From: Cyanobacteriota bacterium
Lineage (GTDB): Bacteria > Cyanobacteriota > Cyanobacteriia > PCC-6307 > Cyanobiaceae
Direction: 5' to 3'
Assembly (NCBI GenBank): GCA_026389335.1
Contig: JAPLIB010000097.1
Coordinates: forward strand, 1 to 63,740
Length of the DNA: 63,740 nucleotides
The notes under the pieces are model-generated. The model saw nothing but the letters and a program-made list of their open reading frames with translations, was not told the DNA's origin and ran no database searches. This document shows positions 1,942 through 54,900 of the stretch, in pieces. Numbering within the stretch: position 1 is the first letter of the stretch; the number at the start of each line of letters is the position of its first letter. Position numbers and translations under genes: made by a program.

Positions 1942-3227
1942 GCCCCCAGGGCCGCCAAAGCCGAGCGCAGGCCGGGGCCGTGCTCGGCCATCGCCCCTTG
2001 GGCGGCCTCCAGTTCGATGTCAGCGGCGGCCATCAACAGGGCCAGCCGCACCGAGCCTTCGGCCTGCTGCAGCAGCTCCCTGCCGCGCTGGCGGCTCAGG
2101 TCGGCCAGATCGGCGAGGATGCGCAGGGCCCGGTCCTCCAGCTTGGCGTTGGTGACGGCCACATCCACCATGCGGTTGCCATACACCTTGCCCAGCTTCA
2201 CCATCACGCCGGTGGAGAGGATGTTGAGGGCCATCTTGGTGGCGGTGCCGGCCTTGAGCCGCGTGGAGCCGGTGAGCAGTTCGGGGCCGGTGAGCAGGCG
2301 GATGTCGATGTCGCAGGGCATCGCCACCTGGTCGGTGGGCACACAGGCGATCGCGATCGCCAGCGCGCCGATCGCCTTGGCCATGCTGAGGGCACCGAGC
2401 ACATAGGGGGTGGTGCCACCGGCGGCGATCCCCACCAGGCAGTCGCCAGGGCCGAAGCCCCGCTGCTCAAGATCGGCCACACCGGCCCCGAACAGATCTT
2501 CCAGGCCTTCGGAGCTGCGCAGCAGGGCGGCGGCTCCGCCGGCCAGCACCCCCTGCACCAGCTCCGGCGCCGAGCAGAAGGTGGGCGGGCATTCGGCCGC
2601 ATCCAGCACCCCCAGCCGCCCCGAAGTGCCGGCCCCCAGATAGAACAAGCGGCCGCCACGCTGCAGGCGAGCGGCGATGCCATCCACCGCTTCAGCCAGG
2701 GGCTGGGCAGCGGCGGCCACCGCCTCCTGCGGGCGGCGATCGTTCTCGCAGAACAGCTCCACTAGGGCTGCCGTGTCGAGCTGGTCGAGGTTTTCGCTCA
2801 GGGCATTGGCCTGCTCGGTGAGCAGATGGCCCCGGCTCCACAGCTGGCTGCCGCTGAGGCTGGCGAGCGGCTCCGCCAACGTGCCGCCCGGGCCTGGCCC
2901 GGCCGCCCTCAGGCCAGCCGGGCCAGGTTCCTGTGGCTGCGGTACTGCGGGGTCCGTTTCCACGGGATTCGTTTCTGCTCGGCCGGTTTCAGCCTGCCCC
3001 GTTGCCGGGCGGGCAGTCTCAACTTGGACAGGTTGGGCTTGTCCTGCCTGGGCTTGCCCAATTGCAGTTGGCCCAATTGCAGTTAGCCCAGTTGCAGTCG
3101 GTCCGATAGCAGTCGGTCCAATAGCAGTCGGCCCGATTTCAGCCTGAACGCTGTCAGCCTGAGCCATATCGCCCTGGCCCATTCCAACCTGGCTCGTGCT
3201 GTCGCACCGTGCACCGGCGTCACTCAC
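1896..3227 (-). CDS. murQ: N-acetylmuramic acid 6-phosphate etherase with long N-terminal extension
   Basis: The core from about residue 134 matches MurQ: LLTEQANALSENLDQL, the SIS-type sugar-phosphate motif YLGAGTSGRLGVLDAAECPP, and LKAGTATKMALNILSTG. MurQ removes the lactyl ether of MurNAc-6-phosphate in cell-wall recycling. The usual length is about 300 residues; this frame gives 443 because of a roughly 130-residue low-complexity leader. That leader includes several GPTAI pentapeptides (about residues 31-57) encoded by a 15-bp tandem repeat. The start chosen is GTG at 3225-3227, which overlaps the DUF3110 stop as GTGA and suggests translational coupling. Internal ATGs at residues 16 and 21 would shorten but not remove the leader. 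The last member of the dnaK1-dnaJ-DUF3110-murQ run. Confidence 0.88.
   Translation of the reverse strand: MSDAGARCDSTSQVGMGQGDMAQADSVQAEIGPTAIGPTAIGPTATGLTAIGPTAIGQAQAGQAQPVQVETARPATGQAETGRAETNPVETDPAVPQPQEPGPAGLRAAGPGPGGTLAEPLASLSGSQLWSRGHLLTEQANALSENLDQLDTAALVELFCENDRRPQEAVAAAAQPLAEAVDGIAARLQRGGRLFYLGAGTSGRLGVLDAAECPPTFCSAPELVQGVLAGGAAALLRSSEGLEDLFGAGVADLEQRGFGPGDCLVGIAAGGTTPYVLGALSMAKAIGALAIAIACVPTDQVAMPCDIDIRLLTGPELLTGSTRLKAGTATKMALNILSTGVMVKLGKVYGNRMVDVAVTNAKLEDRALRILADLADLSRQRGRELLQQAEGSVRLALLMAAADIELEAAQGAMAEHGPGLRSALAALGAQLPASPVPAESAAP
3057..3146 (-). repeat. 15-bp tandem repeat inside murQ leader, six units
   Basis: Six consecutive 15-bp units on the plus strand (first: CCCAATTGCAGTTGG; fifth: TCCAATAGCAGTCGG), at 3057-3071, 3072-3086, 3087-3101, 3102-3116, 3117-3131 and 3132-3146. 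The unit length is five codons, so on the minus strand they encode repeated GPTAI-type pentapeptides without disturbing the murQ frame. Conservation falls at both edges, as expected of an ageing tandem duplication. Confidence 0.85.
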
Positions 3228-3931: not shown

Positions 3932-4975
3932 GTCGGGGTCTGCTCCAGCGGCAGCCTGCCGCCGCTCCCCCTCCAGCTGGCGCAGACGCCCGTAGAGCGC
4001 CAGCTCATCGTCCCCCAGGCCGTCGTCGATCACAATCCTGATCTCTACCAATTGGTCGCCGCGTCGTTCCGCCAGGCTCTGGCCCCGGCCCCGCAGCCGC
4101 AGCATCCGTCCACTGGAGGAGCCCGCCGGCACCCGCAACCGCACCGGCCCTTCCAGGGTGGGCACCACCACCTGGGCTCCGAGGGCCGCTTCCGCCGGCG
4201 ACAGTTCCAGTTTGTACAGCACCCGCAGACCATCAATGCGCAGCCCCTCGGCGGTGCGCACCCGCAGCTGCAGGAAATGATCGCCACCGCCGGTGGCCAG
4301 GCCGTGGAGGCACAACCGCCAGCCATCGCCGGCCAGCGGTGGGGTCCACACCTCCACCACGGTGCCGTCGCGCAGTTCCAGTTCCAGCCGTTCGCCCGTG
4401 AGCGCCTGCTCCGGCGAGAGCTCCACCAGGGTTTCCTCATCGCTGCTGGCCGGCACCGGCGGTGGCGAAGGCGGCGCGGTCGCCACGCGACCCGGCCCGG
4501 CGGCGTCGGGCTGCTGCTGATCCAGCGGCTGGGCGGCAACGCCGCTGTCCCCATCCGCTTCGCTTTGGGGCGCCGCGCCACTTCTTACATCGCCACGGCC
4601 CCGATCACCATTGCCTGCCGCCTCTGTCCGTGGCCGGCCGCCGAAGAGATCAGCCAGATAGTCCTCGAAGTCGGGGAACCCGGTGCTGTAGGGATCGCGA
4701 TCGCCGGGATCGGCTGCGGACCCGTAAGCGTCCGCGCCGCTCTCCCAGGCCCGGCGGCGGCTTGGATCCGAGAGCACCGCATAGGCCTCATTCAGCCGTT
4801 TGAAGCGCTCCTCGGCGCTCGGATCGTTGTCATTGAGGTCCGGATGCCAGCGGCGGGCCTGCTGCCGGAAGGCCCGCTTGAGCTCTTCCGCTTCGGCGCC
4901 GGGTTGCACGCCCAGCACCTGCCAGTGGTCGGCGCCAGCCAGGGTTGAGGGGTCAGAACGGGGACGAGGGCTCAC
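3923..4975 (-). CDS. DnaJ-type co-chaperone (J domain plus DnaJ C-terminal domain)
   Basis: A 350-residue J protein. The J domain (about residues 17-80) has WQVLGVQPGAEAEELKRAFR and the diagnostic HPD at residues 44-46, which stimulates Hsp70 ATPase. A low-complexity linker (about 85-185) follows, then the substrate-binding C-terminal domain with GERLELELRDGTVVEVWTPP and GRGQSLAERRGDQLVEIRI. There is no Cys-rich zinc region and no G/F region, so it is a CbpA/type-II-like J protein rather than canonical DnaJ. The start is GTG at 4975, 5 bp after the dnaK1 stop, so the two are one transcription unit and DnaK1 is its likely partner. Confidence 0.9.
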   Translation of the reverse strand: MSPRPRSDPSTLAGADHWQVLGVQPGAEAEELKRAFRQQARRWHPDLNDNDPSAEERFKRLNEAYAVLSDPSRRRAWESGADAYGSAADPGDRDPYSTGFPDFEDYLADLFGGRPRTEAAGNGDRGRGDVRSGAAPQSEADGDSGVAAQPLDQQQPDAAGPGRVATAPPSPPPVPASSDEETLVELSPEQALTGERLELELRDGTVVEVWTPPLAGDGWRLCLHGLATGGGDHFLQLRVRTAEGLRIDGLRVLYKLELSPAEAALGAQVVVPTLEGPVRLRVPAGSSSGRMLRLRGRGQSLAERRGDQLVEIRIVIDDGLGDDELALYGRLRQLEGERRQAAAGADPDLG

Positions 4976-23049: not shown

Positions 23050-23286
23050 ATGTCCCGCGTCTGCCAACTCACCGGAAAGCGCGCCAACAACGGCATGGCG
23101 GTCAGCCATTCCCACGTGCGCACCAAGAAGCTGCAGCAGGTGAACCTGCAGGAGCGCCGCCTGTGGTGGGCTGAAGGAAAGCGCTTCGTCAAGCTGCGTG
23201 TCTGCACCCGCGCCCTCAAGACCATCCAGAAGAAAGGCCTCGGCAACTACGCCAAAGAGCTCGGCGTCAACCTCGCCCGCCTCTGA
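23050..23286 (+). CDS. rpmB: 50S ribosomal protein L28
   Basis: A 78-residue basic protein matching L28: [20 protein letters not shown] at the N-terminus, [18 protein letters not shown] in the middle and [20 protein letters not shown] towards the end. It is a structural component of the large ribosomal subunit. Full family length, ATG start. Its TGA stop is the first base triplet of a three-copy 20-bp tandem repeat, and a strong terminator follows 90 bp later, so it is transcribed alone. Confidence 0.97.
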
Positions 23287-23344
23287 AGCCGCCAGGCTCA
23301 CTTTGAAGCCGCCAGGCTCACTCTGAAAGCCGCCAGGCTCACGC
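23284..23344 (+). repeat. 20-bp tandem repeat beginning with the rpmB stop codon
   Basis: Three units: TGAAGCCGCCAGGCTCACTT (23284-23303), TGAAGCCGCCAGGCTCACTC (23304-23323) and a 21-bp TGAAAGCCGCCAGGCTCACGC starting at 23324. Each unit begins with TGA, and the first TGA is the rpmB stop. Because the unit is not a multiple of three, the copied stops occupy different frames relative to rpmB. Confidence 0.93.
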
Positions 23345-45380: not shown

Positions 45381-45681
45381 CACGGCAACAGAACGGCTAA
45401 CACAAGTGCGCCGCCCCTGGAAACCAAAAAGCCAGAGGGTGGCAGCAGCAGAAAGGCAGCCGCTGAGGGGGTGCCCGAAAGGGGTGGACCGCCGTGCCGT
45501 CTTGCCCCAGTGTTCGACCTGGATGAACCAGAAGGGGAGTCAGGAGCGGGGCTTCGTTTCCGACTACGAGGCCGGTTTACGTTGCCGTCGCTGAAGACTC
45601 CCCATGTCGAAAGGGAGTCAGATCAGAAAACTGTGAAAGGCAGTCACCAACACAGCAGTCCGCAGAAACCTTAGACCATTT
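45381..45681. other. Structured intergenic region downstream of purK
   Basis: About 300 bp without a supported gene. It contains GGGGAGTC (45535-45542), GACTCCCC (45596-45603) and GGGAGTC (45614-45620). The middle segment can pair with either flank, giving two mutually exclusive hairpins. On the minus strand a weak GCCA/TGGC stem followed by TTTTT near 45423-45439 could end a transcript. A 6S RNA gene is associated with purK in some cyanobacteria, but the expected long rod with a central bubble was not evident here. Confidence 0.4.
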
Positions 45682-51183: not shown

Positions 51184-52320
51184 ATGACCGCCACGCCAAC
51201 CGCGATCTGCACCATCCGGGTGGAGCTGAGCGCCAACCCGTATCCGATCGTGATCGGAGAGGGGAGTCTCGCCCGGCTGGGCGGCCAGATCCGCGCCCAG
51301 GGCTTCAAGGCCGGCACAAAGGTGCTGGTGGTGACCAATCCGGTGGTGCAGGAGCACTACGGCGCCGCAGTCTTGGCCAGCCTGGTGGCGGCCGGTCTGG
51401 AGGCCAGCACCCTGGTGATTGAGGCCGGCGAAGACCAGAAAAACCCGGCCACCGTCGCCCTGATTCACGATGCCGCCTTGGCGCGCCAGCTGGAGCGGGG
51501 CTCGCTGATCGTGGCCCTCGGCGGCGGTGTGGTGGGCGACATGGCCGGCTTCGCCGCCGCCACCTGGCTGCGGGGCGTTGCTGTGGTGCAGGTGCCCACC
51601 ACCCTGCTGGCGATGGTGGATGCCGCCATCGGTGGCAAGACGGGCGTGAACCACCCCGGTGGCAAGAACCTGATCGGCGCTTTCCACCAGCCACGGCTGG
51701 TGCTGATCGATCCGACCGTGCTCACGACCCTGCCGGAGCGGGAGTTCCGGGCTGGCATGGCCGAAGTGATCAAGTACGGCGTGATCGGTGACCCTGAGCT
51801 GTTCGCTGAGTTGGAGCTGGCGGCCCAGCGGGATCCCCAGGCCGGCCTGGCGAGCCTGAATGCGGTGGGACCCGACCTGCTGGAGCGGCTGCTGGAGCGC
51901 TCGGCGGCAGCCAAGGCCACGGTGGTGGCGGCCGATGAGCACGAGGCCGGACTGCGGGCGATTCTCAACTACGGCCACACGCTTGGCCACGTGGTGGAAA
52001 CCCTGAGCGGCTATGGCACCTGGCTGCACGGCGAAGCCGTGGCCATCGGCATGGTGGCGGCCGGCGAGCTGAGCCTGGCGTTGGGGCTCTGGAGTGAGCA
52101 AGATCAGGCACGACAAAAGCGGTTGATTCAGGCCGCTGGTCTGCCTATCAGATTTCCGCCGCTCGACCGCGAGGCCCTGGTGCAATGCCTGCAGGGAGAT
52201 AAGAAGGTGAAAGAAGGTAAGATTCGCTTTGTATTGCCATCAGCGATTGGCGTTGTGGCCATTCATGATGACGTGAGGCTGGAATCGATCTTCGCCATTA
52301 CCGCCATCCAGCCAGACTAA
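51184..52320 (+). CDS. aroB: 3-dehydroquinate synthase
   Basis: A 378-residue NAD- and metal-dependent enzyme of the shikimate pathway. Signatures: [17 protein letters not shown] at the N-terminus, [60 protein letters not shown] and the metal-site helix [20 protein letters not shown]. Complete length. ATG at 51184. Its stop overlaps the stop region of the converging membrane-protein gene by 4 bp. Confidence 0.97.
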
Positions 52321-53129
52321 GGCTCACCAAAGCGTTCGAAGTGCTTCGCCACGATGCGATCAATACGATTCTGGGTGGTGACAAGAACGTCAAGGGAAAC
52401 ATCTTCAATCGAATCGGAATCTCCGTAGCCAAAAGGGTTGTCGAGATCGGCGATCAAGTGCAAAAGAAAGATGAGTAAAAATGAAATCACCATGAGGAAG
52501 AAGGCAGCTTCCACCACCGCATCAGTTTTTGTCAAAACCAGACCCCCACAAAGGAGGAAGGTGGCTGTGTAGGCAAGGTAATAAACCATTTTGACAAAAT
52601 CAGTTTCTCTGATGACATCGATCCGATTGATTGCTCGGAGGATTGAGCCCATCTCAATCATCAATCTGCCCTTGAGTGATGAATGACTGAGCCAAAGGCT
52701 GGAGAGAACGACATGATCATGGGTTTTGTCGTAGACAGCCATCATCCGCTCCGTGGACAGATCCCCCCGAATCCAGGCGAGGATGGCGCGGCCCAGGTCG
52801 CCAACGGAGGCCAGATCAGCGGCCACATCCGCCCCTTGATGATGAAGGGGGATGGCATTCACTTCCCTGGCGATTAATTCCAGGGCCGAAGCGACTTCCG
52901 CCGGCAGCTTTTCGCTCTCTTTGTAGTCTGCCAAGACGCCATTGAGAAGAAAGCCGAACAGAAAAACACTTGAGGCAACGAGGGCCGAAAATAAAGGGTT
53001 GAATGAAATTATTTCCAGCCCAAAATAGTGAAACAGCACTTTTATCGCCGCCATGCCCATGACCAAAGCGCAAACTCTTGCCATCACGGCAAAGCGTCTT
53101 GTTGCGGCCAATCTTTTCAGAAGGGTCAT
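52317..53129 (-). CDS. Membrane protein, bestrophin/DUF4239-like topology
   Basis: A 270-residue protein with two N-terminal helices (about 17-38 and 43-66, including [20 protein letters not shown]), a cytoplasmic helical domain of about 100 residues ([20 protein letters not shown] and following), and two C-terminal helices (around 190-230) followed by [18 protein letters not shown]. The DYKxxxxLP and DxDNPF motifs after helices recall bestrophin/DUF4239-type proteins; this is a resemblance only. Its GC content is lower than that of neighbouring core genes, suggesting transfer. ATG at 53129. Confidence 0.6.
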
Positions 53130-53733
53130 GGCTTTAAGTGTTAAGAGTAAAGGCTATCAAGTCGCCAAGCCCAATCAAGGTGTTCTCCGACACGGGGTCG
53201 ATCCAGTATTGTTGCTGTCTCCGGCTATTTTGCTTGCGCAGCAGCCCGCATACAAAAGCAATCGCCGGCACTCCGGCTCGAAGCAGGAAAGTTGCATCAG
53301 CTGCCGAAGACACCACCGCTGAGAGAACCCCAACTGTCAGGGGTCGGAAGCCCAGGCTGACAGCCCTTGCTTGCCCAACAACGGCTCCGGTGAGATCCGG
53401 GCACGGCGGCTTCAACCCTGAGCGCAAAAGCGGCAGCCGCAATGATGTCAACCAGTCCTTCAGCCAACTGGATGACAGGCGTCTGGATCAGCGCGGTTGA
53501 TTCGGCCCCTACCCCTCGCTGGCCGGGTCGTGGCCCCCTGCTCCTGGGGTGTGCGTTCGGCGTGCTGCCGCAGTCCGCTGGGACCGGATCCAGAGATTGG
53601 CAGCCCAGCGCTATTGGGGTTCAGCTGCTGTGAGGCTCAGCTGCTGTGAGGCTCAGTGGCTGTGAGGCTCAGTGGCCTTGAGGCTCAATAGCTTTGACGG
53701 TCAATGGGTTTTGACGATCAGCGGCTTTGACGG
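53130..53733. other. Intergenic region with possible gene fragment and stop-codon repeats
   Basis: About 600 bp. The part next to the membrane gene (53134-53450, minus) holds a 105-residue frame with hydrophobic stretches LGFRPLTVGVLSAVVSS and AGVPAIAFVCGLL that might be a decayed membrane-protein fragment (faintly UPF0126/TRIC-like), but start and neighbours do not support a gene. 53450-53620 shows nothing I can name. The right end is the 16-bp repeat array. Confidence 0.35.
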
Positions 53734-53749
53734 TCAGGTGTTTTGAGGT
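53621..53749 (-). repeat. 16-bp tandem repeat carrying the midA stop codon, eight units
   Basis: Units at 53621, 53637, 53653, 53669, 53685, 53701 (17 bp), 53718 and 53734. Examples are TCAGCTGCTGTGAGGC, TCAGTGGCTGTGAGGC and TCAGCGGCTTTGACGG. Each starts with TCA, i.e. TGA on the minus strand. The unit at 53734 holds the stop codon of the MidA-type gene, and the remaining units extend downstream of it. Divergence increases away from one part of the array. Confidence 0.9.
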
Positions 53750-54900
53750 TCGCGGGCGAACAGGGGCGGAAGGGCGTTGTCGGCCTCCAGACCTCTGGCA
53801 AAAGCCAGCCAGCGAAAATCACCGAGCGCCGCCGGATCCACTAAGCGCAGCAGGGCCTCTCGCCGCTGCAACAGCTGCTCCAGCCCCAACTCTGGCTGCT
53901 GCTGCAGCCGATGTAGCCGTTCGGCCAGGCCCAGCGCCAGCAACGCCTGCCCCTGCCGGCATTGGCCCAGGGGGCGCCATCCGGAGTCTGCGGCCGCCAG
54001 CTGCAGACTCTCCAGGCAAAGATGGGCGGTGAGATCCCAGGCACCGGGCTCCTGCAGGGGATCGGCGCTCGCCTGTTGGGCCCGATAGGCCAGCAGCGTG
54101 CCGTTTGAGCGCTGGGGCGCGTAGTAGCGCCAGGCTTCCTGGGCGTAATCAATCACCAGCAGCTGGCCGCAACGCAGCGCGCCACCGCAATCCCGCAGCC
54201 AGGGCTCCAGGCCCGGATGCCATTCACTGCACCAGCCGGACGGGCGCTGCGGCCCCGGCTCAGCCAGTCCCAGGGGTACGAGTTGGGCGAGCTGTGACGG
54301 CTCCAGGGGTTCGCCCGGTTCCAGCCGCAGGCTGTCCCCGTGGAGCGTCACCCGCTGGCGGCGCCAGAGCGCCCCGTCTGCCACGATCCGTTCCACCGCC
54401 AGGGCATCGAGCACCTCGTGGGCCAGCACCACACCCGTGACGGGTGCTGCGGCAAGGTCGGCAAAGGAGGACCAGCGCGTTGGCAGTGGGCAGGTCTGCA
54501 ACTGCAACCGCTGGCGCTCGGCCATGCCCGGATTGGGCTCCACCAGCACCAGCTCCAGCCGCTGGGCCAGCTCGGGCCTTTCGGCGGCGATCCACTCCGC
54601 CAGATCGAGGGCCAACTGCCCTTCGCCGGGACCCGTTTCCACCAGGCTGAGACGCTCAGGACTGGACGGCGGCAGCGCCTCGAGCCAGGCCACCAGCTGC
54701 AGCGCCACCAGGGCGGCGAAGTCGGCGCCGAGGCTGGGGGCGGTGACGAAGTCGCCGCGGGGACCGATCTGCAGGCGACCGCTGCCATAGGCGCCGTGCT
54801 GCGGATCATGCAGCACCCACCCCATGTAGGTGACAAAGGGCACGCTGCCGCCAGCGGCGAGCAGTCGTTGCCGCAGCCAGGCCGGCAGCTCAGAGCTCAC
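53734..54900 (-). CDS. SAM-dependent methyltransferase, MidA/NDUFAF7 family
   Basis: A 388-residue protein of the DUF185/MidA family, whose eukaryotic member methylates a complex I subunit; bacterial roles are not well defined. Signature blocks: PFVTYMGWVLHDPQHGAYGS, GPRGDFVTAPSLGADFAALV, the SAM-binding LSLVETGPGEGQLALDLAEW, and VTGVVLAHEVLDALAVERIV. In cyanobacteria it could act on NDH-1 (inference). Start GTG at 54900; it overlaps the upstream hypothetical gene by 11 bp. Its TGA lies in the first unit of a 16-bp tandem repeat. Confidence 0.88.
   Translation of the reverse strand: MSSELPAWLRQRLLAAGGSVPFVTYMGWVLHDPQHGAYGSGRLQIGPRGDFVTAPSLGADFAALVALQLVAWLEALPPSSPERLSLVETGPGEGQLALDLAEWIAAERPELAQRLELVLVEPNPGMAERQRLQLQTCPLPTRWSSFADLAAAPVTGVVLAHEVLDALAVERIVADGALWRRQRVTLHGDSLRLEPGEPLEPSQLAQLVPLGLAEPGPQRPSGWCSEWHPGLEPWLRDCGGALRCGQLLVIDYAQEAWRYYAPQRSNGTLLAYRAQQASADPLQEPGAWDLTAHLCLESLQLAAADSGWRPLGQCRQGQALLALGLAERLHRLQQQPELGLEQLLQRREALLRLVDPAALGDFRWLAFARGLEADNALPPLFAREPQNT

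Follow-up and report, generated by a model that had tools for sequence, protein, structure and literature searches.

A species-specific 16-bp minisatellite at the stop codon of a cyanobacterial MidA-type gene, very probably made by replication slippage

The end of a MidA-type methyltransferase gene in a draft cyanobacterial genome forms the first of eight diverged copies of a word of about 16 bp that carries a stop codon. This locus raises the question of whether the repeated stops act as a translation barrier in several frames or were simply left behind by slippage at the gene end, both of which had been put forward in the original prediction. Analysis of the window, that is the whole stretch of 63,740 nucleotides under study, supported slippage and did not support the barrier. 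The features first needed are the following:

53734..54900, minus strand: MidA-type SAM-dependent methyltransferase, an ORF of 388 aa (Pfam PF02636, Methyltransf_28, E 2.6e-50)
53621..53749, minus strand (that of the MidA gene): eight-unit tandem array of period 16, from sequence, TRF and resampling
Unit starts within the array: 53621, 53637, 53653, 53669, 53685, 53701 (17 bp), 53718 and 53734
53734..53749, minus strand: gene-proximal unit, made up of the final MidA codons and the stop (TGA, 53734-53736)

The predicted coordinates of the array and its eight copies were confirmed by the sequence, by the TRF period of 16 and by lag identity. The 129 bp of the array (7 x 16 + 17) are made up of diverged units lying head-to-tail, for which TRF reported 7.9 copies at a score of 86 and a tighter core at 53627-53687 with 91% matches and a score of 94. 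Identity at lag 16 was 0.76, compared to a maximum of 0.50 at lags 8-39 in 5000 first-order resamples. The array is far more periodic than resampled sequence and is confirmed as real. Pairwise identity between units spans 9-16 of 16 positions and 8 of the 16 unit columns are invariant. With head-to-tail copies and a unit length within roughly 10-100 bp the array falls into the class of minisatellites. The source genome (G000) is a 4.05-Mb draft made up of 171 contigs and tandem repeats may be mis-assembled, but mis-assembly of a single repeat would not yield units as diverged as these, and there is next to no chance that the array is an assembly artefact. Its copy number could still be wrong in the assembly.

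Each unit was expected to open with TCA, a TGA in the sense of the gene, and this holds for 8/8 units. The same is true of the stop codon of the methyltransferase, which is the TCA at 53734-53736 at the end of the minus-strand ORF. TGA is also present on the plus strand in 8/8 units, and all six frames are closed within the array. Less regular than predicted is the way in which the stops step through the frames. One unit, at 53701-53717, has 17 bp, and the stops past the true stop fall in frames 1, 0, 1, 2, 0, 1 and 2 at 16, 33, 49, 65, 81, 97 and 113 nt. Three units accordingly do not block all frames, full closure being delayed to 65 nt on account of the one 17-bp unit. This is nevertheless earlier than in about 96% of 954 called genes, 3.6% of which reach closure by 65 nt when the stretches compared downstream are limited to 200 nt. 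Early closure is expected of any stop-bearing array with a period that is not divisible by three.

The array would thus work physically as a barrier, in that the frames are shut early. Repeated TGAs would then halt readthrough or frameshifted ribosomes past MidA and shield downstream RNA or avoid toxic tails, and the retention of TGA in every unit together with the early closure speaks for this. TGA conservation is however at the level of chance given 8/16 invariant columns (hand count, C(13,5)/C(16,8)=0.10), and TGA is just as well conserved on the opposite, plus strand, on which no gene ends at the array. The regular stepping of frames is broken by the 17-bp unit, and the MidA genes of relatives tolerate open frames, as in G026, where the next 600 nt hold no further in-frame stop.

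Whether arrays are associated with stops in general bears on the same reading. In a sample of 1.54 Mb from nine genomes of the genus, for which our own gene caller was used, 65 non-coding arrays were found at a TRF score of at least 50, and a subset of 46 remained when stretches chosen for a hit were left out. A stop was contained in 14 of the 65 arrays (null 10.4, p=0.14) and in 9 of the 46 (null 6.9, p 0.23). Stop enrichment had appeared likely at first, but in none of three versions of the comparison did it hold against arrays placed at random within non-coding DNA. One of these allowed placement also into runs of N with a tolerance of 3 bp; the two later ones were run without N and had the window array fixed by hand at 53621-53748, which made its stop count. 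Across the combined samples p was 0.14-0.41 (TRF score 50; G000 or pooled genus), while in G008 alone 3/6 arrays contained a stop (p 0.057), or 4/10 at a TRF score of 40 (p 0.040). TGA or TCA was found in the unit of 36/65 arrays, a slight excess (null 29.0, p 0.046), and of 25/46 in the subset (null 20.1, p 0.086). Arrays containing a start were few, 6/65 (null 12.0, p 0.03 for a count this low), a depletion that was weaker in the subset (4/46, null 7.9, p 0.08). Per kb of non-coding DNA the whole sample had 0.45 arrays between convergent genes, 0.30 between co-directional genes and 0.27 between divergent genes; for the subset the respective densities were 0.37, 0.25 and 0.30. The non-coding segments of G000 held 29 tandem arrays versus 0, 0 and 2 in resampled segments, and a search for over-represented words in non-coding DNA gave nothing striking. 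In other genera of the family, 12 stretches with about 30 kb of non-coding DNA yielded 9 non-coding arrays, and 4.5 kb of E. coli K-12 yielded 1, counts too small to show that this genus stands out. Arrays are thus scattered over non-coding DNA, perhaps with an avoidance of starts and with at most a mild preference for stops. With stop enrichment short of significance and TGA conservation at chance level, a function as a multi-frame barrier is not supported and is highly improbable.

The state of the locus in relatives was compared over 39 MidA matches in the genus, 30 loci of which were checked for tandem repeats in about 200 bp around the stop. The 16-bp array was missing at all 29 loci other than that of the window, which all belong to other species, meaning that copy number differs between related genomes. 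Unrelated arrays with periods of 10 to 19 were found near MidA in 5/29 of these loci, and in G030 an 11-bp array runs across the MidA stop. The last MidA codons and the stop align without gaps with the two nearest relatives, G035 and G033, which identifies the gene-proximal unit as the native MidA end; the other seven copies leave the end of the protein unaltered. Both relatives carry one TGA exactly 16 nt past the MidA stop. Compared to the distal unit, the 16-mer after the stop matches at 12/16 bases in G033 (p 0.02) and at 10/16 in G035, which is not significant (p 0.26; shuffles with TGA fixed in both cases). When the array was aligned globally to G035 and to G033, no solution with a single clean gap emerged. 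Past the array, the flank showed a weak match to G035 (p 0.039) and none to G033 (p 0.39).

The contigs with the nearest MidA relatives that bear names are assigned to Synechococcaceae, Cyanobium, Vulcanococcus, Synechococcus and uncultured cyanobacteria, and one to Bifidobacterium breve. The latter, CALPNT020000127.1 (L117), is labelled as a Bifidobacterium breve MAG and holds the nearest named MidA relative (84%); it is probably a mislabelled bin.

A second array over a stop codon is found in the window:

23281..23342, plus strand: three 20/21-bp units from the rpmB stop codon onward, from TRF and sequence

The gene upstream of it is, by its sequence, presumably rpmB, encoding ribosomal protein L28. 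With flanks aligned by eye, the window has three copies and G026 a single one, and in both genomes the repeat begins at the stop. An array over the rpmB stop was found in 0/7 relatives compared (11 loci, with 3 that gave no word-search match left out).

The MidA array is very probably a species-specific minisatellite made by replication slippage. Slippage at the gene end, as originally proposed, gains support from the 29/29 array-free MidA loci, from the identity of the distal units and from the parallel at rpmB. Slippage between similar words 16 bp apart would have given the first duplication, the seed words being the CTGA with the stop and another CTGA, still present 16 nt downstream in the nearest relatives. 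Later rounds of slippage may then have added further copies, the latest ones at the distal end. In fact, units 1 and 2, which lie farthest from MidA, are identical and unit identity drops toward the gene, which suggests that the newest copies are at the far end. In a duplication that spans the stop the first copy would still end the protein and leave the product unchanged, so that arrays would be tolerated at stops and disfavoured at gene starts. A scatter of arrays with avoidance of starts is what such tolerance predicts. No function beyond slippage and tolerance is needed. The locus illustrates clearly how a stop codon can give rise to a tandem repeat without damage to the gene, with relatives keeping the one-copy state, and if copy number varies the array could be used as a strain marker.

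Two further functional readings concern structure within the array. A transcription terminator or mRNA 3'-end structure might be built from the repeated short hairpins, and the minus-strand RNA does fold better than dinucleotide shuffles (z -2.17, 5/200 shuffles equal). Folding is however not above that of column-permuted arrays, 17.6% of which were equally good, and of six candidates from a scan for intrinsic terminators (GC-rich hairpin and T run) 0/6 fall inside the array. Such a role is very unlikely. The second reading rests on palindromic sequence at the ends of the units:

53631..53736, no strand assigned: six dyads of 9 bp at the junctions between units, TGAGGCTCA at 53631, 53647, 53663 and 53679 and TGACGGTCA at 53695 and 53728

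A dyad is found at 6/8 unit ends, in four cases TGAGGCTCA and in two TGACGGTCA. The array holds 8 palindromes of the form 4+1+4, including two further CAGCTGCTG-type palindromes, versus a mean of 0.5 in column-permuted arrays, 0/500 of which reach 8; the dyad pattern was picked out post hoc. These perfect dyads, one helical turn and a half apart at a spacing of 16 bp, could be putative sites for a DNA-binding protein. One change between them, GC to CG, is symmetric and would not be expected from plain slippage, but this double change may be a single event passed on to neighbouring units. In G009 the TGAGGCTCA 9-mer likewise opens an array of 16-bp units at the end of a different gene (L032, G009:C4:40056-40101), apparently between convergent genes; this is a selected case, having been found through its similarity to the MidA array. 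No related site is known elsewhere in G000, where the array unit gives weak short matches only. The double-dyad pattern occurs in 4/251 genomes of the family. In G000 it is confined to the MidA array, and the other three genomes each hold one occurrence away from the array. The reversed control pattern turned up once. A dispersed element was rejected on these counts. An array of binding sites is accordingly given a very low probability, and the dyads leave a small chance of a role as a protein-binding element.

The same features could be joined in a selected element, the unit of which would combine a two-strand stop (TGA...TCA dyad) with a putative protein-binding site and insulate the gene end against readthrough from both sides by a cheap, self-expanding repeat. 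This is improbable to much the same degree; were it true, the G009 TGAGGCTCA array between convergent genes would be a second, independent case. A 32-bp (2 x 16) GCCACTGAGCTGGACA-type array is also found between convergent genes in L108 at 4282-4358 (G033:C120).

Tandem repeats in intergenic DNA that have been shaped by slippage are well documented. Bacterial minisatellites or VNTR resemble the MidA array in their diverged head-to-tail copies, their non-coding position and their species-specific presence, and differ in that the unit of the MidA array includes the gene's own stop. The MIRU of mycobacteria, the REP/BIME elements and the cyanobacterial STRR heptamers are dispersed families of shared sequence that likewise form intergenic repeats near gene ends, some of them in tandem, whereas the unit of the MidA array is not dispersed. 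The array is an ordinary, species-specific minisatellite at a gene end, of a kind with slippage-shaped intergenic repeats that are already known. Searches of the literature gave no account of the MidA array, nor of minisatellites at stop codons in this genus, and the word 'repeat' is absent from the main text of PMC2441476. Intergenic tandem repeats in lake bacteria are, in PMC9426551, linked to deletions and attributed to slippage. MacGregor 2015 (PMC4679880) describes TAACTGA direct repeats with stops in all three frames in Beggiatoaceae and some cyanobacteria, which overlap the stop of the upstream gene in 13 cases and thus set a precedent for the idea of a multi-frame stop repeat. As described there (PMC4679880), TAACTGA is a fixed 7-bp word that recurs genome-wide, mostly before start codons. 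Both are short direct repeats with stop codons in three frames, but the MidA array unit is a different word of 16 bp at a single locus in its genome. The TAACTGA heptamer is absent from the array on either strand, and recurrence of the array word at many G000 loci was not observed.

The setting downstream of the array is made up of the following:

53130..53620, no strand assigned: remainder of the 604-bp gap between MidA and its neighbour, ~490 bp
52317..53129, minus strand: next gene on this strand, weakly Bestrophin-like (E 0.00023, below the Pfam cut-off)

An evident homologue of this neighbour lies 96 bp past MidA in G026, compared to the gap of 604 bp in the window. The 491 bp beyond the array gave two short matches of 65 bases outside their own place among 42 genomes of the genus, and the sequence at 53130-53620 is nearly absent from the genus. 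A 105-aa ORF within it gave no match in Pfam or NCBIfam. Elsewhere in the window a 6S RNA is found on the minus strand at 45482-45664 (Rfam RF00013, 89 bits), and a 15-bp tandem array of 5.8 copies lies at 3056-3142, within or beside a doubtful small ORF.
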